Of a DNA stretch of 64,000 nucleotides, positions 14,384 to 26,036 are shown piece by piece. Each line of letters starts with the position of its first letter. Position 1 is the first letter of the stretch. The translations under genes were made by a program, and so were the position numbers. The DNA is from an uncultured bacterium (GTDB taxonomy: Bacteria; Bacillota; Clostridia; Lachnospirales; Lachnospiraceae): assembly GCA_947381965.1 (NCBI GenBank), contig CANCXX010000019.1, positions 1 through 64,000 on the forward strand. The letters are read 5' to 3'. The notes below the pieces were generated by a model. The model ran no database searches. It had not been told where the DNA came from and was given only the letters and a program-made list of their open reading frames with translations.

Positions 14384-14521
14384 ACTTTTCCTTTCCTGCA
14401 GCATACGGCGTCCTTCCCTTCCTGTGGAAGCGCCGCACTGCCGCCATTTTTCTCCATCTTACATTGCAGCGTTTATTGCTGCCTGACGCCTGCCAGATGA
14501 ACTGGCTCTTTTTACCCACCT

Positions 14522-14602: not shown

Positions 14603-16180
14603 TTACCTGCTATGCAAAATCCTTTCATGCGCTATGCAAAGCTTTTTCATACAGACCCAGTAATTTCTGTCGCTTGCGTACCTGGCGGTTTTAATTTTTT
14701 CTTCTATGTTTTCCTGTTCCGTCAACCAATCCGACCGGACCTTTCCCAGGCGCAGACACCGCACAGCCTCCCGGATTTTTTCCTGTTCGGTTCCCATATC
14801 CCGCATATTTTCCAGTAGTTCAGCCGCCAGCCTGTCATAAACCGGATTAGAGAATTCCTGTCTGTCTAAGCTATATTCCAGTTCAAAAATCCGGTTTCCC
14901 CTATCCTCCGGCAAGTAGCACACATCCTCCGAGGTTTCCTCTATATGGAGATAATATAGCGCTGCCCTGTTTTTCCCTTCGCTTATCCGCAAAATACGTC
15001 CCAGACGCTGCAGCCGCTGCCGCTTTGCGGCTGTGCCCGATAAAATAATTCCCAAAGCCGCATCTGGCACATCTATACCCTCGTCAATTGCTTTGCAGGC
15101 TATCAAAATCCTTATTTCTCCTGTCCGAAACCGTTCCAGAGCATTTTTATTGGCCTGCTGCCCCATTCGGGAATGATACCTGCCAACTTTCCCCGGAAAC
15201 TTTTCCTGCAAAAGCCGGTACAATTCATCTGCCTGACGGATCCGCTCCCCAAAAATAAGAATTTTCTCCAAAGAAGGCAGCCGTTCTGTCAAAACAGCGG
15301 CACAGGATATTCTTGCGGAAGCTAAGCAAACCAGACTTTTTCTTTTATATGCAAGATTCATATACATAGACGCCGTCTCCGCCACCTTCCGGTCTTTATC
15401 GCCGGAGAGCCTGCGCAGCATCTCAAAGCGTTCCTTCTGATCCATCATACGCAGGGAAGGATGAACCTTTAATAACCTTACGAAAAGAAATGTCATTCTT
15501 TCCGAAAGCTCCTCATATTCCTTCCGTTCCTGTCTTTTAAAAGGCAGCCGGATATGATAAATATCATATTTGCAAACCGTATGCCCCTCCGATGCCTCCG
15601 CCATTCCGTAAGTGTAAATTTTTCTTCCCAGAACAGAGGCCAGATACCGGCCTGCCTGACCGGAAGGCAAAGTTGCCGAAAGACCCAGAGAAAAAAATTT
15701 CTCTCTATATTGGTCTATATAAGGGAGGAATTCAAATATAAGCCTGTTCTGCCCGCTTTCATAGTGATGACATTCATCTGCTATCAGCAAAATACGTTCG
15801 CCTCTTCGAAGCTCTGACAATATCTGACGGGCCAGCTCATACCTTGCTGAGTTAATCACATAAATCATATACCGACACTCCGGAGACGATCTGCAGCCTG
15901 CCCCCCGAAGTCCAATCTCCCTGTTAAGGTCCCCTGCCATCTGCTCTCCTTCTTTGCTTATGAAAAAGTCTTTCAGGGCACTTTCCCATTGCCGCATCAA
16001 GGCGCCTGTGGGCACAACGATTTTTATACGAAGCTTTGTCCCTTCTGCCAGCCGGTAAGCAGCAGTCAGTGCAAGCAGGGTTTTTCCTGAACCGGTAACA
16101 GCCTGAACCATTCCTCTGCCGCCATTTTCAAACCATTTCTCCAGACATTCTTCCTGCCACCTATAAAGCTCTTTTCCCAT
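14603..16180 (-). CDS. SF2 helicase, XPB/Rad25-like DECH-box, part of the DUF2791 ATPase locus
   Basis: A superfamily 2 helicase of 525 residues from ATG 16180, which has AAGGAG 5 nt upstream; the frame runs back to TTG 16282 but that extension lacks a clear ribosome site. Motifs: Q-like LYRWQEECLEKW, Walker A AVTGSGKT near residues 27-34, DECHH near 134-138, SLGLSATLPSG (motif III), IDEGIDVPDA (motif V) and RLGRILR (motif VI). Both RecA-like domains are complete. The DECHH box and short length resemble XPB/COG1061 helicases often found with phage-defence genes. It is transcribed divergently from the three-gene ATPase operon, 238 nt away; I infer that they work together. No nuclease or methylase domain is fused. 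Confidence 0.8.
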   Translation of the reverse strand: MGKELYRWQEECLEKWFENGGRGMVQAVTGSGKTLLALTAAYRLAEGTKLRIKIVVPTGALMRQWESALKDFFISKEGEQMAGDLNREIGLRGAGCRSSPECRYMIYVINSARYELARQILSELRRGERILLIADECHHYESGQNRLIFEFLPYIDQYREKFFSLGLSATLPSGQAGRYLASVLGRKIYTYGMAEASEGHTVCKYDIYHIRLPFKRQERKEYEELSERMTFLFVRLLKVHPSLRMMDQKERFEMLRRLSGDKDRKVAETASMYMNLAYKRKSLVCLASARISCAAVLTERLPSLEKILIFGERIRQADELYRLLQEKFPGKVGRYHSRMGQQANKNALERFRTGEIRILIACKAIDEGIDVPDAALGIILSGTAAKRQRLQRLGRILRISEGKNRAALYYLHIEETSEDVCYLPEDRGNRIFELEYSLDRQEFSNPVYDRLAAELLENMRDMGTEQEKIREAVRCLRLGKVRSDWLTEQENIEEKIKTARYASDRNYWVCMKKLCIAHERILHSR

Positions 16181-16339
16181 TCTCTCCTTCTCCAAACAAT
16201 ACTCTTTCCACTTCCCATGGCAAGGCTCTGTGGAGCCTGACATCAGCAGAAATACACCTGCAGCTCCTGCATCTTTGGACAAACAGCTGCAGATAGCAAT
16301 ATAATTTTATCATACAACACCCATTTATAAAACAAATTG

Positions 16340-16368
16340 TTGAAAACGCCTGCCTTTTCGCTTATACT
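16340..16368 (+). promoter_or_regulatory. promoter of the three-gene ATPase operon
   Basis: TTGAAA (16340-16345) and TATACT (16363-16368) are separated by exactly 17 nt and lie 51 nt before the first ATG. The sequence between here and 16180 also has to carry the helicase leader. Confidence 0.7.
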
Positions 16369-16418
16369 TTTTATAGCTTTAAAAAATTACTCATAAAAAT
16401 TCGAAAAAGGATGAAAAA

Positions 16419-17186
16419 ATGAATTACGAAAGCTTATACCAGTCCCTGCAATCCGATGAAAAATCCTTAAAAGAAGGAATTTCTTCCCTTCAAAAGCTTT
16501 ATAAATCTATTCGCCGGGAAACAGAAAACGGAGACCTCAAAAGTCTTCTTAAGGATCTAACTGCCATGTCCGAAGCCCTTTCCTCCCTTTCCGCCGCTTT
16601 AGAAAATATGAAAGCGGCCGCTGACGGTTTTGATAGCAGAAGCTATTTTGAAAGCGGCGATTTTGCAGAACAAATGTTAGATGCCTGCAAAGAAAAAGAT
16701 GTAAATGTTCGTGGAGAGTTTCCGGTTTACGAAATGTTTCCTTATAAAGTAAAACTGGACACTGAAAACCAGGATCTATATCTGGACCGCAAAAAGGTAC
16801 AGTGCATGCGCCCTTTAAGTTTTGTTGAAATTGTCCGCAGTGGCCAGGAAAAACTAAATAAAGCTCCTTTTAATGCTCTCACCTTTGTCAATGAGCTTTC
16901 CGACGCCTACGACCTTGCGCTTCTTAAGTTAGACAAAACCCCCGGCACTGATGTTTATCTCACAAGCCTGTATAAATTCCTTGCTCCCATGAGCCGCTTC
17001 CGGAAAGATTATGACCAGCAAAACTTTGCTTTTGACCTTGCAAGGCTCTATAACTCTGACACAGAAGAAACTAAAACCGGAAGAAAGTTTCAGTTCGGTC
17101 CAAGCCGGAATAATATGAAGGCAATCCGTATTCTGGATAGGGATGGACATGAGCAGTTTCTTGCAACTATCTGTTTTTATGAATAA
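16419..17186 (+). CDS. unknown protein with N-terminal coiled coil, first gene of the DUF2791 ATPase operon
   Basis: A 255-residue soluble protein that I do not recognise. Residues about 1-75 are strongly helical and heptad-like (LYQSLQSDEKSLKEGISSL, then LKDLTAMSEALSSLSAALEN). A globular part follows, with short beta-like segments (EFPVYEMFPYKVKLD, DLYLDRKKVQCMRP) and a C-terminal region ending in ATICFYE. No enzyme motif, signal peptide or membrane segment is seen. AAGGATG precedes the ATG and the next gene starts 14 nt after its stop. By position it could be the adaptor or sensor that bridges the two ATPases, comparable in place to TerB-like or other small partners in related loci, but this is inference. 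Confidence 0.75.
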   Translation: MNYESLYQSLQSDEKSLKEGISSLQKLYKSIRRETENGDLKSLLKDLTAMSEALSSLSAALENMKAAADGFDSRSYFESGDFAEQMLDACKEKDVNVRGEFPVYEMFPYKVKLDTENQDLYLDRKKVQCMRPLSFVEIVRSGQEKLNKAPFNALTFVNELSDAYDLALLKLDKTPGTDVYLTSLYKFLAPMSRFRKDYDQQNFAFDLARLYNSDTEETKTGRKFQFGPSRNNMKAIRILDRDGHEQFLATICFYE

Positions 17187-17200
17187 GAAAGGAAACCAAA

Positions 17201-18400
17201 ATGTCCGAATTTGTTGAAACGCCGGCTGTCCCGGATACCTCAAGCCATCTGTCCGCTGAACAGCTATCCTGCGGCATCCGGTTCCTTACCGACTTCTGGA
17301 AAGAAAAATACCTCCGGGAATATATTAAAGACGGAGGAAGTAAAATCAAATTTGTAACCGGACGCACAGGCAGTGGCAAAACCCATTTTCTGCAGGTAAT
17401 CTCCTCTATCGCTCAGAAGGAAAATTATAATACTGTCCATTTTTCTGCCAGAGATATCTGGATGCACGATTTTAAAGAAATTTATGTGGAGATTTTTCAT
17501 CAGTGTGATATATTAAAATGTCTGGAAGCCGTCAGCCGTCATCTCATACAGGAAATGGGATTTGACTATAAGGATATTCCTGAGGGCATGAAATTTATTG
17601 ATTACCTTTCCCAGAATGGATATGGGGATGCTCTGACCAAACGTGAAATCCGTTCTCTGCTCCGGAAAATATTTCTGGATAATCCCCTCCTTGACAACAA
17701 CTTTGCTTTAGCCTGCAGTATGCTAACCGGCAGTATTCTGGGCTATCCGGTTCTGGAAGAGCAAAATCAGGAACTGCTTTTATCCTGGCTGGAAGGGGAT
17801 CGTTCCATTAAGCTGTCCCAGCTCCGCGCTCTTGATTTTTATCCCAGCCGTATCACCAAGTATAACGCCCGCCATATGCTTCGTTCTCTTGCAGAGCTTA
17901 TCCGTATGGGGGGATATTCCGGTCTTTTTATCACCATTGACAATCTGGAAATACTGATCAGCCGTTCCAGTCTTGATCCGGTACATTATACAAAAATGAA
18001 ACGTGAAGACACTTATGAAAGTATCCGTCAGCTGATTGATGACATAGACAGCATGAAAAACATTATGTTTGTATATGCCTTTGATCGGGAATTAATTGAC
18101 AATGAGAACGCTGGCTTAAAATCCTATCAGGCCCTTTGGATGCGCATACAAAATGAAATTGTCGGAGAACGGTTTAACCGTTTTACAGATGTGGTTGACT
18201 TAGACCGTCTTGCAGCTCAGGAATATTCCCCTGAGGTGATTATTTCTATATCCCAAAGCATTGCCAGCCTGCAGAACATACCTGTTTCTCCTTTAGATAC
18301 ACAGACGGCACAGGAAATTGCAGCCCAGGCCCGTACAGGAGCCATTGGCATTCCCCGGCTGATTCAAATTGCTATACAGGAGGTAAAATCCCATGTATGA
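17201..18400 (+). CDS. BREX-type ATP-binding protein (DUF2791-like), paralogue 1, degenerate Walker B
   Basis: A 399-residue P-loop NTPase. Walker A is GRTGSGKT at residues 54-61. The Walker B strand near 241-249 reads LFITIDNLE: the aspartate is kept but the following glutamate expected for hydrolysis is asparagine. Later helices (MKREDTYESIRQLIDDIDSM, FVYAFDRELIDN, GERFNRFTDVVDLD) fit the BrxC/BrxD-like DUF2791 layout in which a loop after Walker B precedes a sensor region. Its N-terminus differs from paralogue 2. It overlaps the next gene by 8 nt, which suggests coupled translation and equal amounts, so a hetero-oligomer is likely. Confidence 0.75.
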   Translation: MSEFVETPAVPDTSSHLSAEQLSCGIRFLTDFWKEKYLREYIKDGGSKIKFVTGRTGSGKTHFLQVISSIAQKENYNTVHFSARDIWMHDFKEIYVEIFHQCDILKCLEAVSRHLIQEMGFDYKDIPEGMKFIDYLSQNGYGDALTKREIRSLLRKIFLDNPLLDNNFALACSMLTGSILGYPVLEEQNQELLLSWLEGDRSIKLSQLRALDFYPSRITKYNARHMLRSLAELIRMGGYSGLFITIDNLEILISRSSLDPVHYTKMKREDTYESIRQLIDDIDSMKNIMFVYAFDRELIDNENAGLKSYQALWMRIQNEIVGERFNRFTDVVDLDRLAAQEYSPEVIISISQSIASLQNIPVSPLDTQTAQEIAAQARTGAIGIPRLIQIAIQEVKSHV

Positions 18401-19589
18401 TATTGAAGCCAGACACATCATTGAAGCCTTGCGTTCAGGCATACCTTCCCGTGCCGTAGGTCAGTATTTTTCCGAGGCACGTCCTAAAATTATGAAAGAA
18501 ATATCCGACCGTCTGGATATGGTATGCGAACAGGGAAAATCCAGTGGAATGATTATCAGCGGTAAATATGGGGAAGGCAAAACCCATCTGCTAAACACTG
18601 TTTTTAACCTTGCCCATTCCAATAATATGGTTGTCTCCTATATATCCTTAAGCAAAGAGACACCCATGGATAAGCTGTATCTGGTTTATCAGAAGCTTAT
18701 TCAGAATACATATCTGCCAAAACGCCAGCAGCCAGGTTTTATGCACGAACTGGAAAAGATATCTGCCAATAGCCCTGTTGCCAGCGAAATGCTGATGTAT
18801 GCTTTAAAGCATTTGGAGACAGATAAACTATATTACTTATTCCGCTGTTACCTGAATACAGAAGATCCCGATGAAAAATTTCTTCTGCAGGCGGACTTGG
18901 AGGGGGATTTTATCGCAAATGTACCTCTTAAAAAGATTTACCGCCGTATTTTTGACCAGCCTGTAAAATACAATACGAACTTTACCAAAACCAGACACTG
19001 CAGCGATTACCTTTCATTTATGAGCCACCTGTTTACCCAGATGGGATATCATGGATGGGCCATTTTGATTGACGAAACGGAGCTGATGGGGCGTTTAAGC
19101 AAAAAAGCCCGGCTGAATGCCTACCGCAATATGGCGGACTTTCTTTTGCCGGAAAAATGTCCGGAAGCTTCCTTTTGCATCTTTGCCTTAAGCGCCTCCT
19201 ATACAGAGGATGTGATTGAGGCCAAACATGAATATGAAAACCTGGAGGCCATTTATCCTGGGGAGCCTGAGCCTGCCAGAACCGTCTTAAATCTTCTTGC
19301 CAAAGCGCCCCAGCTTCTCCCCCTTACAAAAGAGGAAATTAATGAAGTGCTGGGCAAAATACAGGATTTTCACGGAAAGGCTTATGAGTGGACACCAAAC
19401 TTATCCATCGCCTCCCTTGCGGATTCCACCCAGTCAGGAGGGTATTTGTTACGCACCAAAATCCGTGCGGCAATTGAATTTTTGGATCAGCTCTACCAGT
19501 ATGGGAAGTCCGGTAAAACCACCATCAATGAGCTTGGGGAAGAAACCTTTACGGAAGATGTCCCCTCTATTGAAGACTTTGACGTATGA
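18393..19589 (+). CDS. BREX-type ATP-binding protein BrxD-like (DUF2791), paralogue 2
   Basis: A 398-residue DUF2791 protein. The N-terminus ARHIIEALRSGIPSRAVGQY is the classic family start; Walker A GKYGEGKTH is at 57-65 and Walker B WAILIDETELMG near 219-230, with a proper DE pair. The C-terminal part contains FCIFALSASYTEDV and a conserved arginine-rich segment RTKIRAAIEFLDQLYQYG. BrxD proteins are known from type 2 BREX (Pgl) loci and related defence islands, where the biochemical role is not settled. No other BREX core gene (PglX methylase, PglZ, BrxA, BrxB) is in this window. GGAGG precedes ATG 18393 inside the previous gene. Confidence 0.85.
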   Translation: MYDIEARHIIEALRSGIPSRAVGQYFSEARPKIMKEISDRLDMVCEQGKSSGMIISGKYGEGKTHLLNTVFNLAHSNNMVVSYISLSKETPMDKLYLVYQKLIQNTYLPKRQQPGFMHELEKISANSPVASEMLMYALKHLETDKLYYLFRCYLNTEDPDEKFLLQADLEGDFIANVPLKKIYRRIFDQPVKYNTNFTKTRHCSDYLSFMSHLFTQMGYHGWAILIDETELMGRLSKKARLNAYRNMADFLLPEKCPEASFCIFALSASYTEDVIEAKHEYENLEAIYPGEPEPARTVLNLLAKAPQLLPLTKEEINEVLGKIQDFHGKAYEWTPNLSIASLADSTQSGGYLLRTKIRAAIEFLDQLYQYGKSGKTTINELGEETFTEDVPSIEDFDV

Positions 19590-19590
19590 A

Positions 19591-19617
19591 AAAGGAGAGC
19601 CAAAAACTCTCCTTTTT
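19591..19617. terminator. intrinsic terminator between the ATPase operon and the MATE gene
   Basis: AAAGGAGAG and CTCTCCTTT pair around CCAAAAA and are followed by TTTT on the plus strand; the A-rich upstream side gives a usable U-run for the converging MATE gene as well. Confidence 0.85.
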
Positions 19618-19625
19618 TATACTTA

Positions 19626-20996
19626 TTAAATTGCTCTCCCTTTCCACTTCCCACGTTTATAAAAGAAAAATGTAATAATTGCGCCAATCAGCCATGAAAC
19701 CAGCAAAGAAATAAAGATACACTCCTGTCTTCCTCCCGGAAATTCCGGTGATCTTGTCAGAAATGCTATCCCATAGGCAATGGGCACCCGGATACATATC
19801 GTTGTTGCAATTGAAATCCACATAGGAGTCATCGTGTCCCCTGCGCCCCGCATTACCCCGGAAAGGCTCTGGGTAACTGCCATGGCAATATAACCTACAG
19901 CAAGAATTCCCATCATTTCCCGGCTTAAGTCTACCAGCTCCGGTGTTTTTGTAAAAATTCCCATCAGTGACTTTCCAAATATCAGTATTAAAGAAGTGAG
20001 CACCGCAGATATTCCCATTGCAATCGCTGTTCCCTGCTTTGCTCCCTTCTCAACCCGCTCATACATTTTGGCCCCTACATTCTGTCCGGCATAGGTGGTC
20101 ATTGCCGTTCCAAAAGAAAAGTTAGGCATCATGGCGAAACCATCCACGCGCATTACAATTACATTTGCTGCAATAAACATTTCCCCAAAGCTGTTGGTCA
20201 GGGACTGGACCACAATCATTGCCATAGAGAGAATTGCCTGGGTAATTCCTGATGGAAGACCCAATTCAATAATCTTTACGGTATGTTTTTTCTGAAGCTT
20301 TAAATAACGCGGGTTTAAATCAAAAAGTGTACTCATCTTTTTTAAACGTATCAGACAAAGCAGCGCTGAAATCGCCTGGGCAATAACTGTTGCCAGAGCC
20401 ACACCGTTAACGCCCATATCCATTTTTGCAACAAACAGTAAATCCAGCACAATATTCACAAATGTGGACACCAGAAGATAGACCAGGGCCGACATAGAAT
20501 CTCCAAGCCCCCTCAATATACCGCTTAAAATATTGTAATATGCAAGTCCCCCGGAACCAATAAATAAAATAAGCAGATAAGAATGACACCAGCCAATAAT
20601 CGATTTCGGCGTATCCAAAAGCTCCAGCAGCGGTCTTGCCACTAAAGATGCCGCCACCATTACAAACAATGTCGCAATTCCTGTAAGCGTAACGCAGTTT
20701 CCAATCGTAACAGACAACTCTTCCCTCTGTTTTGCGCCAAAATACTGGGATACCATAATACCGGCGCCCACACTGATTCCCACAAATAATACAATAAGAA
20801 GGTTCAAAATCGGTCCCGCACTGCCAACTGCTGCCAGAGCATTATCTCCCACATAATTCCCCACAACCACACTATCCACCGTGTTGTACAGCTGCTGGGC
20901 AATATTTCCAACCAGCATTGGAACTGTAAATAATACAATTTTTTTCCAAGGTGAACCATCTGTCATATCCACCGGTGCAAATAATTTTTTCAGCAT
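19626..20996 (-). CDS. MATE family multidrug/cation antiporter
   Basis: A 456-residue protein with twelve hydrophobic segments. The start region SPWKKIVLFTVPMLVGNIAQ, QLYNTVDSVVVGNYVG and the repeated half beginning LKKMSTLFDLNPRY-IIELGLPSGITQ are those of the MATE (NorM/DinF-like) family, which export cationic drugs using Na+ or H+ gradients. SGVMRGAGDTMTPMW is the family's second-half signature. The ATG at 20996, with AGGA 5 nt upstream, is preferred over TTG 21011 and ATG 21002. It is divergent from the Xre-methyltransferase gene, which might regulate it, though no operator is evident. Confidence 0.92.
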   Translation of the reverse strand: MLKKLFAPVDMTDGSPWKKIVLFTVPMLVGNIAQQLYNTVDSVVVGNYVGDNALAAVGSAGPILNLLIVLFVGISVGAGIMVSQYFGAKQREELSVTIGNCVTLTGIATLFVMVAASLVARPLLELLDTPKSIIGWCHSYLLILFIGSGGLAYYNILSGILRGLGDSMSALVYLLVSTFVNIVLDLLFVAKMDMGVNGVALATVIAQAISALLCLIRLKKMSTLFDLNPRYLKLQKKHTVKIIELGLPSGITQAILSMAMIVVQSLTNSFGEMFIAANVIVMRVDGFAMMPNFSFGTAMTTYAGQNVGAKMYERVEKGAKQGTAIAMGISAVLTSLILIFGKSLMGIFTKTPELVDLSREMMGILAVGYIAMAVTQSLSGVMRGAGDTMTPMWISIATTICIRVPIAYGIAFLTRSPEFPGGRQECIFISLLVSWLIGAIITFFFYKRGKWKGRAI

Positions 20997-21162: not shown

Positions 21163-21228
21163 TTTACTGGCTTATTCTATTTATAACACAATACTGTATC
21201 TAACCTGTAGAAAAAAGAGGAATTGAAA

Positions 21229-22053
21229 ATGAACAACGTGAAAACAGGAGAAGTAATAAGTAAACGGCGCAAAGAGCTTGGACTGACCCAAAATCAACTG
21301 GCTGGCTTTCTGAATATCTCTTTCCAGGCAGTATCAAAGTGGGAGAACGGCACAGCCTACCCGGATATCGCATTGCTCCCCAAACTGGCAGCGGCGCTTA
21401 ATACAACTGTCGATGCACTGCTTGGTTATAGCAGCGTAATAACAGATTACGACAATCGATACTGCACAAAAGAATATTACTGGGGCCTTGTTCCTAATCA
21501 CATTTGTTATGATATAATGAAAATTCTCCCCCCCATAAAGTCTTACCGCGTACTGGATATCGGCTGTGGAGAAGGAAAGGATGCGGTTTTTCTTGCCAAA
21601 TGCGGTTATACGGTAACAGCCTTTGATATTTCAGAAGCCGGCATTGAAAAAGCAAAGGAGCTTGCCAGTCAAAATAAAGTTAACGTTAATTTTTTTAAAG
21701 CAGATATTTTCGATTATCGGCCTGACACTGTATTTGATATTATATTCAGCAGCGGTGTATTCCATTTTATCCCGCCTGGCGAGAGAAAAGAATTCTGCCA
21801 AAGCCTTAAAGAGCATACTGCTGACGATGGTATCAACGCGCTGAATGTTTTTGTTAAAAAACCTTTTATTTCCCGTGCCCCTGACAGTACACAGACTGAA
21901 GATAAGAGACATCCCTGGCGCTCTGGCGAGCTCTTTGGATACTATCATGACTGGCTGTTCCATCTTTGTTCTGAAAATGTATTTGACTGTAACAGCGGCG
22001 GAATCCCTCACAAGCACTGTATGGATACCCTTATTGCACAAAACTATAAATGA
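21229..22053 (+). CDS. Xre-type regulator fused to a TehB-like SAM methyltransferase
   Basis: A 274-residue two-domain protein. Residues about 7-65 form a Cro/CI helix-turn-helix (ISKRRKELGLTQNQLAGFL, SFQAVSKWENGTAYPDI). From about 85 onward lies a class I methyltransferase with motif I VLDIGCGEGKDAVFLA, the acidic turn FDISEAGIEKA, and FKADIFDY; it resembles the TehB/tellurite-resistance and UbiE-like group. ATG 21229 (AGAGGAA upstream) is preferred over TTG 21223. The substrate is unknown; the architecture suggests a regulator that senses or modifies a small molecule, possibly a toxic compound also handled by the divergent MATE pump. Confidence 0.87.
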   Translation: MNNVKTGEVISKRRKELGLTQNQLAGFLNISFQAVSKWENGTAYPDIALLPKLAAALNTTVDALLGYSSVITDYDNRYCTKEYYWGLVPNHICYDIMKILPPIKSYRVLDIGCGEGKDAVFLAKCGYTVTAFDISEAGIEKAKELASQNKVNVNFFKADIFDYRPDTVFDIIFSSGVFHFIPPGERKEFCQSLKEHTADDGINALNVFVKKPFISRAPDSTQTEDKRHPWRSGELFGYYHDWLFHLCSENVFDCNSGGIPHKHCMDTLIAQNYK

Positions 22054-22153: not shown

Positions 22154-25100
22154 TTACTGCAGAAGGTTCAAGACCATATCTGACAGCTGGTTTGCCTGGG
22201 CAAGAATTGTCTGGGACGCCTGCATCATAAAATTATTTTTAGCCTGTTCCATCATCTCGAAAGCCATATCCGCATCCCGGATAACAGATTCACTTGCCTG
22301 TGTGTTTTCAATAACATTATTGTTATTATTAACCGTATGTTCCAGCCGGTTCTGTGTGGTGCCATAGAGACTGCGTCTGGAACTTAACATGCTTATTGCA
22401 TTTTTAATGCGTCCAAGGGCTTTATCTGCATACTTTGGTTTACTTAAGGTAAGTGAATTAATTGCAAGAGAGCATGAACTAACACGTGTACGGGGCATTT
22501 CCACCACATCCCTTGTTTCCGTTCCCACCAAAATAAGCATTGGGTCACGGGACTTTCTCCCTGCTTCCTCCAAAAATATGACCCCCCTTGCGTTTCCGCC
22601 AATATCCGTTATGGTATGTGTGCCAACTGCCTTATGAGCAATTTTCAGCGCTCCATTTTCTATAGATGCCTTAAGCGGCGCCTTATTCTTATTATCATCT
22701 CCGTTTGCAAACATATAATTGAGTGTGTCAATAAACTCTTTCCCCGTATAATTGGTATCTTCAGGAAATGTATATTTATAAGGCACGCCGTCTGCAAGAA
22801 AGGTAAGCACATTCTGTCCTTCTTTAAATCCAACGCCTTTTGAAATATCCTTGGTTCCAACTATATAAGTTTCCTTGGGTTTTCCTGTTGTCTTATAAAA
22901 AACAAAACTTGCCGCACTTCCCCGTATACCATCCAGAACATATTGCCCCTTAGCCGGCGCTTTATCCGCTTTTCTGTTTACAACAATCTGCAACGCCGTG
23001 TCGTCATTTGATCCGACCACCCCTGTCGAAAGTCCGCCAACTGAAACCTTTATATCAAAATCTTCAAGCCCTTCCGCTACGAACTTTTCCTGAATTTTTT
23101 TCTCCAGAACCGCCGCAAACTCATCCCCGTTATACACGCCCTCCGGAATCGTCACATTCATATGATTTACATAACTACTAAAATCTGCACTTCCGCTTAT
23201 ATACTCAAAGTCAAAGGTAAACACATCATTTGCCCCGGAAAATATCTCAATAGGTTCCGCTCTCAGATCCTTACGTCCAATAATGTACGCAGCTTCAAAA
23301 TCCTTATCGGTATAAGACCCTTCTTTTATATAGCTTTGAGGCGATGCCGCTGTCTTTTTACATAATATAACTTCTTTATAAAAGCTTCCTGAGGCGCTCA
23401 GCGTATTGCTGTCCGCCAAAAGCTTAAGACTACCGTTATTGGTAATTTCAACAGTAACCACTCCATCTAAAGCAGAACCCTTAATTGCATTTTCCACAGC
23501 AGTTTTTAGTGCATCTCTGGTATTATAGGACCCTTGGGCTATATTTAAATCAACATCTCCATTTCCCATATTTAAAGTCAGTTTATCATTTGTGCCATCT
23601 ATATTTATATTTTCAGAAATCGCATAGTAAGTTGTAAGAGACGCTTGTCTTGCCGTTTGATACCAATGCTCGGCAGGCGTTGTTTTCGTTCCCAATATCG
23701 CTGCCCATGCAGAATCGCTGTTATTGACCGATGTAATCTCCAGCTGCCAGGTACCATCAGATACACTTGAAGGAGGCGTTGATGTAAATGTCAGCTTTCC
23801 TGTACCGCTATCATAAGATGCTTTTATACACTGAAGGCAAACTTCTCCGCTGTCTGCAAACTGGCGGTTTATTTCTGTCACCAGACCTGCCATATTATAA
23901 TTACCTGTTTTTAATGTAATACTCTTATTTCCCTGTCGGGTATAAAACCATATTTTATTGCTGTTTTCATTAATTTTAATTGTAGATGACTGCATTTGGG
24001 AGGGAATTGTGGCCGTTGCCACCGCATCTATTTTGTCAACCTTTGTGGACCCCTGGGGCCTCTCTATACTTCCATATTTATATGTATAATATCCGTTATT
24101 TATTGTTGTTGTTGTGCCTGTAAACAGTTTTTTGTATGTATCATTTTTATTTGCCGCATCAAAATCAATTTTCTGTATATCTCTTGTCAATGCACTGATC
24201 GCCAGTCCGCTTCCATAAGATATAAACTTGATTTTATCCTTCATACCCAAAAAACCAACGCTGTTTTGTATAAAATCATTTAATTTCGTAATCAACGCAT
24301 TGCGGTCTGTATATGTTCCTCCAAGATTATCAATCGTATATGTTTTATTATCAATCTGAAATGATAATGAAGCGCTGCCTGAAAGGGTGATAGGTCCATT
24401 TAAAATTGCCCTTCCCACAAGCTGGGCATTTTGACCGTTTATATCATTAGGAAGATATCTTGTGGTCAGAAACAAAGCATCATATGCGCTGGCATAGACC
24501 GAACCGGCAGTTATATCAAATTCCAGCCGGCTCCCGCTGCCGCCTAATGTACTTTCTAATTTTAAGTATCTGGAATTGGTAATTGATGCCTTTGCCTCAT
24601 GGTCAAGTCCCTCGTCCTTCAGACGGTCATTGATTTCACGGGCAAGTTCGCTCAAGGAATATTCTTTATTTGTCAGCTTGATCTCTGCGAAATCAGCTGC
24701 ACCATTTAATTTAAAGCGCAAAATATTGTTTGTATCATTTATCTCAATTTTACTTGTATAATAATCATAATAAGAACTTCCGGTAACAGTCGCACAGGTA
24801 CCGCCGCTGGAACTGCCATAGTTTACATTATCATAAAACACAGAAGAATAGACAGGTTTTGATGTTTCCAGTTTAAACATATTACCTTTAAGACCTGTAA
24901 TGTTTATTGAAGCATCTCCCCCTTTAATCTGAATACAGGAATCCCCATATTCCGTAGCTGTAACACCAGCCGTACCAGAAGTTTGGGCAAGACTGTCATT
25001 AATTATATCAATCATCTGGGCGCGGGTGTATTCTCCTGGGGGAATCCTCAGTGAAATAAAATTAGACTTATTTAATTTTTCAACATAAAATCCAAGCTCA

Positions 25101-25939
25101 TCATTTTTCCCATATGTGATAATTAAAGGTTCTTTCAAATCAAACACAGTGGTTCCCAAAAGATTAACGGGAGCATTGCCGCTGTGAAAGTCATAAAACA
25201 GATAAGAAAGAGAACCATCTACCGAAGAAATTTCTGCCGGCATCCCATCCGCCCGTTCATAATTCAGTTTACAGTAGCCTTTATCTGTAAGTTCAAATTC
25301 AAATCCCGGATTTGGGGGAGACATTCTACCCAGCGCATCATCAATTTCATCCATCAATTCCTGTGTGGTATATACACCCGCCGGAACGGTAAGTGTATAC
25401 TCGTCAGGGTAATAACTGCTGGGAAGATGTATTTTTAATTCATTTTCCAGAGAAGAAACTGTGTGCAGCTGATTGTCATCCCATCTCTTATTTCCTGCAA
25501 TCTGGTAAAAAGAATCTTCATGCGCTTCAAATACTGGCTGCCCATTATACTGTGTATCACGACTGATACGGTCAATTTCTGTGCGCAGTTGATCAAATTC
25601 AGCATTCAGTGCGGTGCGCTCACTTTCCGTACAGGTGCCGTTCAGTGATTTAACTGTCAGTTCGTTCATGCGCTGTAATATGTCATGGACCTCATTCATA
25701 GCCCCATCTGCAACCTGGGCATAGCCAATGCCGTCCTGGGCATTAAGCGTTCCCTGTCTTAGGCCTCGGATCTGACGACGCATTTTTTCTGAAATTGCTA
25801 ATCCTGCCGCGTCATCCGCCGCCCTGTTGACTCGGTACCCGGAAGATAATTTTTCTGTTGTCTTTTTGGTTTTCCTGTCATTAATCTGAAATTGTCTGCA
25901 AGCGCCAATTGCAAGCATATTACTGTGAACAGATATCAT
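22154..25939 (-). CDS. giant flagellin with a modular central insert
   Basis: A 1261-residue flagellin, against roughly 270-500 for ordinary ones. The N-terminal D0/D1 block is canonical (KLSSGYRVNRAADDAAGLAI, then LNAQDGIGYAQVADGAMNEV), as is the C-terminal block (TQASESVIRDADMAFEMM, ending ANQLSDMVLNLLQ). About 950 residues between them replace the usual hypervariable domain and consist of about eight related modules (see the repeat entry). The start is ATG 25939 with GAGG 9 nt upstream; the frame continues upstream to 26002 without a ribosome site. No HExxH metallopeptidase motif is seen, so it is not a flagellinolysin. No other flagellar gene is in the window. It would form a filament with a very thick surface layer if assembled. 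Confidence 0.9.
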   Translation of the reverse strand: MISVHSNMLAIGACRQFQINDRKTKKTTEKLSSGYRVNRAADDAAGLAISEKMRRQIRGLRQGTLNAQDGIGYAQVADGAMNEVHDILQRMNELTVKSLNGTCTESERTALNAEFDQLRTEIDRISRDTQYNGQPVFEAHEDSFYQIAGNKRWDDNQLHTVSSLENELKIHLPSSYYPDEYTLTVPAGVYTTQELMDEIDDALGRMSPPNPGFEFELTDKGYCKLNYERADGMPAEISSVDGSLSYLFYDFHSGNAPVNLLGTTVFDLKEPLIITYGKNDELGFYVEKLNKSNFISLRIPPGEYTRAQMIDIINDSLAQTSGTAGVTATEYGDSCIQIKGGDASINITGLKGNMFKLETSKPVYSSVFYDNVNYGSSSGGTCATVTGSSYYDYYTSKIEINDTNNILRFKLNGAADFAEIKLTNKEYSLSELAREINDRLKDEGLDHEAKASITNSRYLKLESTLGGSGSRLEFDITAGSVYASAYDALFLTTRYLPNDINGQNAQLVGRAILNGPITLSGSASLSFQIDNKTYTIDNLGGTYTDRNALITKLNDFIQNSVGFLGMKDKIKFISYGSGLAISALTRDIQKIDFDAANKNDTYKKLFTGTTTTINNGYYTYKYGSIERPQGSTKVDKIDAVATATIPSQMQSSTIKINENSNKIWFYTRQGNKSITLKTGNYNMAGLVTEINRQFADSGEVCLQCIKASYDSGTGKLTFTSTPPSSVSDGTWQLEITSVNNSDSAWAAILGTKTTPAEHWYQTARQASLTTYYAISENINIDGTNDKLTLNMGNGDVDLNIAQGSYNTRDALKTAVENAIKGSALDGVVTVEITNNGSLKLLADSNTLSASGSFYKEVILCKKTAASPQSYIKEGSYTDKDFEAAYIIGRKDLRAEPIEIFSGANDVFTFDFEYISGSADFSSYVNHMNVTIPEGVYNGDEFAAVLEKKIQEKFVAEGLEDFDIKVSVGGLSTGVVGSNDDTALQIVVNRKADKAPAKGQYVLDGIRGSAASFVFYKTTGKPKETYIVGTKDISKGVGFKEGQNVLTFLADGVPYKYTFPEDTNYTGKEFIDTLNYMFANGDDNKNKAPLKASIENGALKIAHKAVGTHTITDIGGNARGVIFLEEAGRKSRDPMLILVGTETRDVVEMPRTRVSSCSLAINSLTLSKPKYADKALGRIKNAISMLSSRRSLYGTTQNRLEHTVNNNNNVIENTQASESVIRDADMAFEMMEQAKNNFMMQASQTILAQANQLSDMVLNLLQ
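22710..25400 (-). repeat. eight degenerate modules of about 120-135 residues in the flagellin insert
   Basis: Each module contains a strand-turn-helix unit of the pattern hydrophobic strand, G-x-Y-[TNS], two or three residues, then a helix ending near I-x-x-x-[LFA]. Examples in protein order are LTVPAGVYTTQELMDEIDDA, LRIPPGEYTRAQMIDIINDS, IKLTNKEYSLSELAREINDR, DNLGGTYTDRNALITKLNDF, LKTGNYNMAGLVTEINRQFA, LNIAQGSYNTRDALKTAVEN, VTIPEGVYNGDEFAAVLEKK and FPEDTNYTGKEFIDTLNYMF. Their DNA centres fall near 25370, 25020, 24660, 24305, 23895, 23520, 23120 and 22740, a spacing of 350-410 nt. They look like flagellin IN-type modules. Confidence 0.75.
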
Positions 25940-26036
25940 ATATTTATCCTCAACTGTATAAATATTTTGACTGCAAGTTATGCCAAATGTCCGTTTTTTC
26001 ATTCTTTAATATGGCAAAATTTGCTATCTTTTCGTA

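Follow-up and report, generated by a model that had tools for sequence, protein, structure and literature searches.

What brings a helicase gene together with an operon for a coiled-coil protein and two unequal ATPases in an uncultured Lachnospiraceae bacterium, and what might the four proteins do? The genes lie at positions 14,603 to 19,589 of contig CANCXX010000019.1 (assembly GCA_947381965.1), within a stretch of 64,000 nucleotides that was analyzed as a whole and that we call the window. An earlier note, made from the letters alone, had described a DECH-box helicase divergent from a terminator-closed operon of a coiled-coil protein and two DUF2791 ATPases and had taken the four for a candidate defense machine; the open reading frames (ORFs), Pfam matches and the terminator fold bear this layout out. 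We find that the locus is a genuine cassette of four genes, that it is mobile, and that it is built around a portable ATPase trio without a name, composed of the coiled-coil protein (CC) and the two ATPases (AT1 and AT2). We propose, with a probability of roughly 0.6, that the cassette of the window is one version of a modular machine directed against invaders, in which the fixed trio licenses exchangeable motors, here the helicase (HEL).

The four-gene cassette

14603..16180, minus strand: HEL, a superfamily 2 (SF2) DECH-box helicase of 525 amino acids (aa); better read from this start than from the called TTG ORF (14603-16282), because its homologues begin about 35 residues inside the latter
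16181..16418, divergent intergenic region: sigma-70-like sites on the plus strand at 16276-16305 and 16340-16368 (consensus matches only)
16419..17186, plus strand: CC, 255 aa, with a helical/coiled-coil N-terminal third and without a named family
17201..18400, plus strand: AT1, a PF10923 ATPase with a P-loop and a D-N Walker B
18393..19589, plus strand: AT2, a PF10923 ATPase with a P-loop and a D-E Walker B, overlapping AT1 by 8 bases
19585..19621, plus strand: terminator hairpin beginning at the AT2 stop codon; its A/T arms make both directions possible

HEL matches ResIII and Helicase_C in Pfam. Motif II is DECH in all 48 aligned sequences, and motifs I, III, and VI are recognizable among the commonest strings listed. 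The nearest solved structures are archaeal XPB/RAD25 chains (E = 7e-43), the best PADLOC match is PbeA (213.4 bits), and no nuclease domain was recognized in the protein. CC has no above-cutoff match to a named family in Pfam, NCBIfam, PADLOC, or PHROGs, so defense callers built on these collections would miss it; its matches to solved structures are weak, generic coiled-coil ones over residues 6 to 100 or so. The ATPases score 105.5 and 92.6 bits against the PF10923 profile (cutoff, 22.2), with Walker motifs present and that of AT1 altered at Walker B, and they are the only PF10923 matches in the 4.3-Mb genome. The terminator fold (-17.8 kcal/mol, z = -7.75) was equalled by 0 of 200 shuffles and is absent from the list of a simple terminator scan. 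The divergent region holds 17 sigma-70-like consensus matches, with 10.3 expected.

A search of public genomes with AT2 returned 75 related loci, 56 of which have room for the cassette (the AT2 match begins at least 4.6 kb into the locus). All four genes are complete, unbroken, and ordered as HEL(-), CC(+), AT1(+), AT2(+) in 46 of these 56. The remaining ten include three loci broken in one or two genes (L028, L064, and L075), one cut by a contig end (L080), five that are decayed or partial (L050, L060, L079, L081, and L083), and one in which the helicase is missing (L063). Among 78 distinct loci, a recount without three duplicates, the clusters of the four genes are present in 69, 64, 62, and 58, and the next commonest neighbor in 12; the conserved unit contains no transposase or integrase in these loci. 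A few loci are arranged in other ways: L094 has all four genes in the same direction, as CC-AT1-AT2-HEL; L092:3277-5310 has two extra genes between helicase and CC in an otherwise ordinary cassette; and in L014:17621-21166, prmA, rsmE, and nifS lie on the ATPase side, the same genes being on the helicase side in the window.

The surroundings vary. The window's glnA, MATE, nudix, and methyltransferase (MT) ORFs, whose names, like those of other flanking genes, were read from translations without a family search, recur at more than 50% identity in 0 of the 56 loci, as far as each locus extends. When the window was compared with members of its genus, DNA similarity ended at 14395-14423 on the glnA side and resumed at 19627 or beyond on the MATE side. 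In genomes G599 and G595, the glnA and MATE matches are only 107 and 74 bp apart; since their glnA is 64 and 63% identical to that of the window, this is an empty-site comparison at the level of genes and not of bases. Of the 37 genomes of the genus, 3 have a full-length AT2 with an open reading frame; the gene is broken in G612, truncated in G614, and reduced to a 32-residue fragment in G583. Weaker AT2 matches occur in G612, G615, G616, and G618, and the two tested, from G612 and G618 (L110 and L111), are SngB-like ATPases that group with SngB, so that Shango-type genes and the cassette occur in one genus.

CC is similarly scattered, being present in 5 of 200 family genomes (its own included) and, with a narrower profile, in 5 of 391 genomes of the window's class. 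Broader profiles found homologues in 18 of 398 genomes of the phylum and in 42/154, 29/113, 5/20, and 5/63 genomes of four classes. Judged by these comparisons, the cassette has a scattered distribution, can move, and in some places has decayed. The earlier note had proposed a test of whether the four genes co-occur in variable islands, and the counts above agree with both a conserved unit and variable places. The genes are neither a loose grouping nor a core chromosomal feature in one fixed place, the two outcomes that the note had held against itself, because the unit is conserved, its flanks are variable, and its distribution is patchy.

The three-gene core and its partners

We then looked at distant relatives. 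On plasmids of Desulfomonile and Aulosira, a 279-aa protein, two PF10923-type ATPases, and a BrxHI/SngC-type helicase stand in a row. When CC was compared by hhalign with each of these 279-aa proteins as single sequences, the support was modest (E = 2e-5, probability 77; E = 1e-4, probability 58), and our view of them as distant CC relatives relies on two broader profiles (A5 and A7) and on the constant gene order. A 22-row tree groups AT2 with the second ATPase of both plasmids (98/95) and leaves SngB apart, the place of AT1 being less sure. Across 73 distant loci (including 33 of 46 places from the 154-genome class search and 22 of 32 from the 113-genome class search, and excluding L158 of G661, a 45-residue match), AT1 comes next after CC in 72, and both ATPases follow it in order in 70. 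AT2 is missing from L199 and L234 near a contig end, and AT1 and AT2 are missing from L229. On this evidence of gene order, CC-AT1-AT2 is an older, fixed-order trio that forms the core of the cassette, and the helicase is an exchangeable partner. The earlier picture of a four-gene machine needs revision to that extent: the unit is conserved and is not BREX (bacteriophage exclusion), but its core is a three-gene trio, its helicase is exchangeable, and its ATPases have different catalytic residues.

Within 1.5 kb of the 73 distant trios, the partners are BrxL (16 loci), a superfamily 1 (SF1) helicase (13), a BrxHI-like helicase (8), a PbeA-like helicase (8), CRISPR-cas genes (7), SNF2 (6), a helix-turn-helix (HTH) protein (3), and an unrecognized protein, U437, next to Hsp70 (1); representatives of the classes were checked by profile, and the rest were assigned by similarity to them. 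Representatives scored 304 bits for BrxL, 165 for HSP70, 166 and 214 for SNF2, and 1905 for DUF6079 in L151, and the SF1 representative combines AAA_11/AAA_12 with a topoisomerase-type zinc ribbon. PADLOC recognized Cas10d (1156 bits), Cas3b (625), Cas6 (347), and Cas8a (212), as well as Cas7 and Cas1, and its names place the linked genes in types I-D (L146), I-B (L149), and I-A-like (L150); repeat arrays are present in L146 and L216. Partner matches number 63 in the 201 kb within 1.5 kb of a trio and 13 in the 536 kb from 1.5 to 9 kb, that is, 3.13 per 10 kb versus 0.00 to 0.50 per 10 kb in four farther bins, a control that was not blind, its references having been drawn from trio-adjacent genes, and that counts for less in our favor on that account.

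In a 76-row AT2 tree, from which L199, L229, and L234 are absent, the 13 rows labeled PbeA-like, the window included, form one group (99% SH-aLRT). The six motor classes require at least 9 changes on this tree (minimum possible, 5) and all nine labels require 14 (minimum, 8); the tree is a quick one, for which the program warns of long branches meeting, and some labels were set by hand (L063 as PbeA-like, with no helicase found there, and L152 and L190 as BrxL by eye). The comparison of loci establishes a module, its mobility, and the exchange of its partners.

Some loci combine further genes with the trio. L194, L195, L197, L204, and L205 are composite: besides the trio, they hold a BrxHI-like helicase plus another PF10923-type ATPase (402 bits in L194; the others were identified from gene lists). 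In L192:1440-11789, the trio lies between a large SNF2 protein and an SbcC/SMC-like ATPase. A small membrane protein is encoded beside the trio at three CRISPR-linked loci (L146:4890-5249, L150:8780-9148, and L215:9270-9674); that of L146 is a DUF4282 protein (Pfam, 73.8 bits), and the other two look alike by eye.

We also analyzed the catalytic motifs of the two ATPases. AT2 of the distant loci has Walker A in 70 of 70 sequences and a D-E Walker B in all 69 readable ones. In the search of solved structures, AT2 gave a weak match to DnaI (E = 0.015). AT1 of the close relatives has a D-D or D-N Walker B in 62 of 62 cases. In the distant AT1 set (n = 72), the second Walker B residue is N in 25, D in 25, E in 4, and another residue in 18. 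The P-loop is lost in 11 of these sequences, and 61 fit a lenient pattern that permits R for K, three of them (L198 to L200) carrying R. Loss affects 6 of 6 CRISPR-linked and 5 of 6 SNF2-linked AT1s. At the level of aligned residues, the asymmetry between AT1 and AT2 is clear, and it offers a naturally occurring series: the ATPase site disappears from one subunit and stays intact in the other.

Comparison with known systems

The BrxD-BrxHI dyad of BREX type 2 resembles the cassette in placing a PF10923 ORC/Cdc6 ATPase beside an SF2 helicase, and a helicase-loading role has been proposed for BrxD (PMC12839542). The window differs in having two unequal ATPases, CC, and a helicase from another SF2 branch. 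Among the matches listed for the four proteins, PglZ is absent and DUF6079 appears in AT2 only, below cutoff (10.9 bits), a test that covers the locus, where we read the neighbors as glnA, nudix, and MATE; no search for PglZ or DUF6079 was made elsewhere in the genome. No methyltransferase (PglX/BrxX) is present among the four proteins, and the BrxD equivalog NF033438 scores 67.2 and 53.6 bits, far under its cutoff of 350. As the earlier note had inferred, these four proteins include no PglX, PglZ, or methylase. A second likeness lies in BREX type 1, where the active ORC/Cdc6 AAA+ protein BrxC is bound and stimulated by an inactivated relative, BrxB (PMC13326643, PMC12839542); however, BrxC is a large DUF6079 protein, and BrxB bridges to PglZ and not to a helicase.

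Shango (SngA-SngB-SngC), which has anti-phage activity (PMC10250203), is likewise a small system with an ATPase, a helicase, and an accessory protein, but it has one ATPase where the window has two. SngA of a plasmid Shango contains TerB_N, TerB, and TerB_C, whereas CC has no TerB match. SngB sequences form a separate supported clade, the PADLOC SngB model scores only 66.3 and 49.3 bits, and SngC is not among the 25 of 54 PADLOC matches listed for HEL, PbeA being the best. PbeABCD shares with the cassette the helicase core of PbeA. The HEL match starts at PbeA position 247, and CC, AT1, and AT2 match no Pbe model (E up to 1); PbeA itself bears a PLD domain at its N terminus and is accompanied by an ABC ATPase, a DndE cognate, and a small protein (PMC6459918, PMC10853773). 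No cas genes surround the window's cassette, as read from its ORFs, the cas link being found only in seven distant relatives. The cassette is not BREX, Shango, or PbeABCD. No description of the trio was recognized in the collection of papers searched, which excludes supplements and outside papers or preprints, and the part of the 2026 BREX survey available to us (PMC12839542) makes no mention of it.

Two other ORFs of the window, outside the cassette, drew our attention by eye. One (22154-26002, minus strand) encodes a flagellin-like protein of 1282 aa, well above the usual flagellin length, whose middle part is long and variable; the other (21223-22053, plus strand) looks like a fusion of an HTH regulator with a SAM methyltransferase-like domain.

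Proposed licensing of exchangeable motors and competing explanations

We propose that the trio acts as an ORC/Cdc6-like module of asymmetric build, by which one DNA motor or another is loaded or licensed, probably for defense. AT2 would be a working ORC/Cdc6-type ATPase that hydrolyzes ATP, AT1 a related subunit with lost catalytic residues, and CC a protein that holds or links them. AT1 and AT2 would assemble asymmetrically on DNA, and ATP turnover by AT2 would load or license a DNA motor on invading DNA; CC and AT1 would regulate, recruit, and set the choice of partner and substrate, much as inactivated BrxB acts on BrxC. In the window, the motor would be the XPB/PbeA-like SF2 helicase, which would block or unwind invading DNA and not cut it, because it has no recognized nuclease. 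We infer complex formation, loading, and defense alike, the last from the company of the trio (CRISPR, BrxL, BREX-like genes, and the PbeA-like helicase), its patchiness, and its decay.

Several observations weigh against this proposal. Lachnospiraceae neighbors (100 of 164 listed proteins, from 25 of 41 usable loci) are mostly ordinary genes with few defense-family matches, and a defense-island setting was not found among them. The 25 of 69 PADLOC families listed for them include a type III methylase, a GajB-like protein, and a reverse transcriptase with one member each, besides four mad3 matches, of which the one inspected is an ABC transporter. Among the 73 distant trios, 11 have no recognized partner within 1.5 kb, two of which (L152 and L190) look BrxL-linked by eye, with the cut L152 gene having no Pfam or PADLOC match; the 73 also count the near-identical L185 to L187 three times. 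L063 has no helicase within its 7.8-kb contig. AT2 has no match in 50,697 phage records and only the two distant matches of Desulfomonile and Aulosira in 72,556 plasmid records, and a viral contig scan with profile A2 confirmed no relative. Some active AAA+ proteins, DnaA among them, also have D-D at Walker B, so an AT1 that keeps D-D could still be active. The ordinary neighbors and the trios without a visible partner weaken the defense reading in particular. What the earlier note had called a defense candidate is a conserved unit in variable places, patchy and separate from BREX, but its sampled Lachnospiraceae neighbors are not rich in defense families.

Alternatively, the trio might load motors onto damaged or stalled host DNA, with the XPB-like helicase serving an accessory repair pathway. 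The XPB/RAD25 repair helicases nearest to HEL point that way, as do the ordinary Lachnospiraceae neighborhoods and the SbcC-like neighbor in L192, and SF1, SNF2, and RecQ-like partners fit repair too. We nevertheless consider such a genome maintenance role unlikely, since the cassette is patchy and decays and since trios in or beside type I cas genes (7 loci) or next to BrxL (16 loci) are hard to explain by repair alone. Descent from BREX or Shango as a degenerate remnant, keeping the BrxD/SngB and helicase part, would account for the shared Pfam ATPase family, for the BREX-like set beside the Aulosira trio, and for the BrxHI-like helicase and third PF10923 ATPase that accompany some trios. 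The trio is, however, kept as such over wide distances, AT2 and SngB fall in separate supported clades, no BREX or Shango counterpart of CC was found, and the BrxD equivalog scores remain far under cutoff; this reading is largely refuted, and we hold it to be very improbable.

A role as a general sensor of nucleic acids or stress, with an output set by the partner and with the CRISPR link reflecting spacer acquisition and not interference, earns still less credence from us: trios adjoin cas1 in L146, L149, L215, and L216, one lies near Hsp70, and several have no visible partner, but L150 and L148 adjoin effector or cas6 genes instead, and the partner is a motor in most loci. Least probable of all is that the AAA+ pair belongs to a mobile element and chooses insertion sites as transposition ATPases do. 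The cassette does change place between genomes, and ORC-type ATPases serve transposases (PMC10853773), but the conserved unit comes without a transposase or integrase, and DDE transposases make up only 2 of the 100 Lachnospiraceae neighbor proteins.

The licensing of exchangeable motors by a fixed trio is thus the reading that we favor. In its broadest form, which we hold tentatively and at somewhat less than even odds, CC, a pseudo-ATPase, and an active ATPase would make up a general-purpose DNA-loading or licensing engine common to innate and adaptive immunity as a plug-in, coupled in one setting or another to helicases (SF1, SF2, or SNF2), to BrxL, or to Cascade-Cas3, and unnamed in the literature searched. 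The CRISPR-linked copies point to a type I accessory that the available part of the 2025 CRISPR classification (PMC12669027) does not mention, the words BREX, AAA, ORC, and BrxL being absent from it in a word search. The trio, found also beside CRISPR genes elsewhere, may be a common part of several bacterial immune systems. If so, PF10923 ATPases such as BrxD and SngB would gain a testable role, and one mechanism would lie under several systems that are now studied apart.

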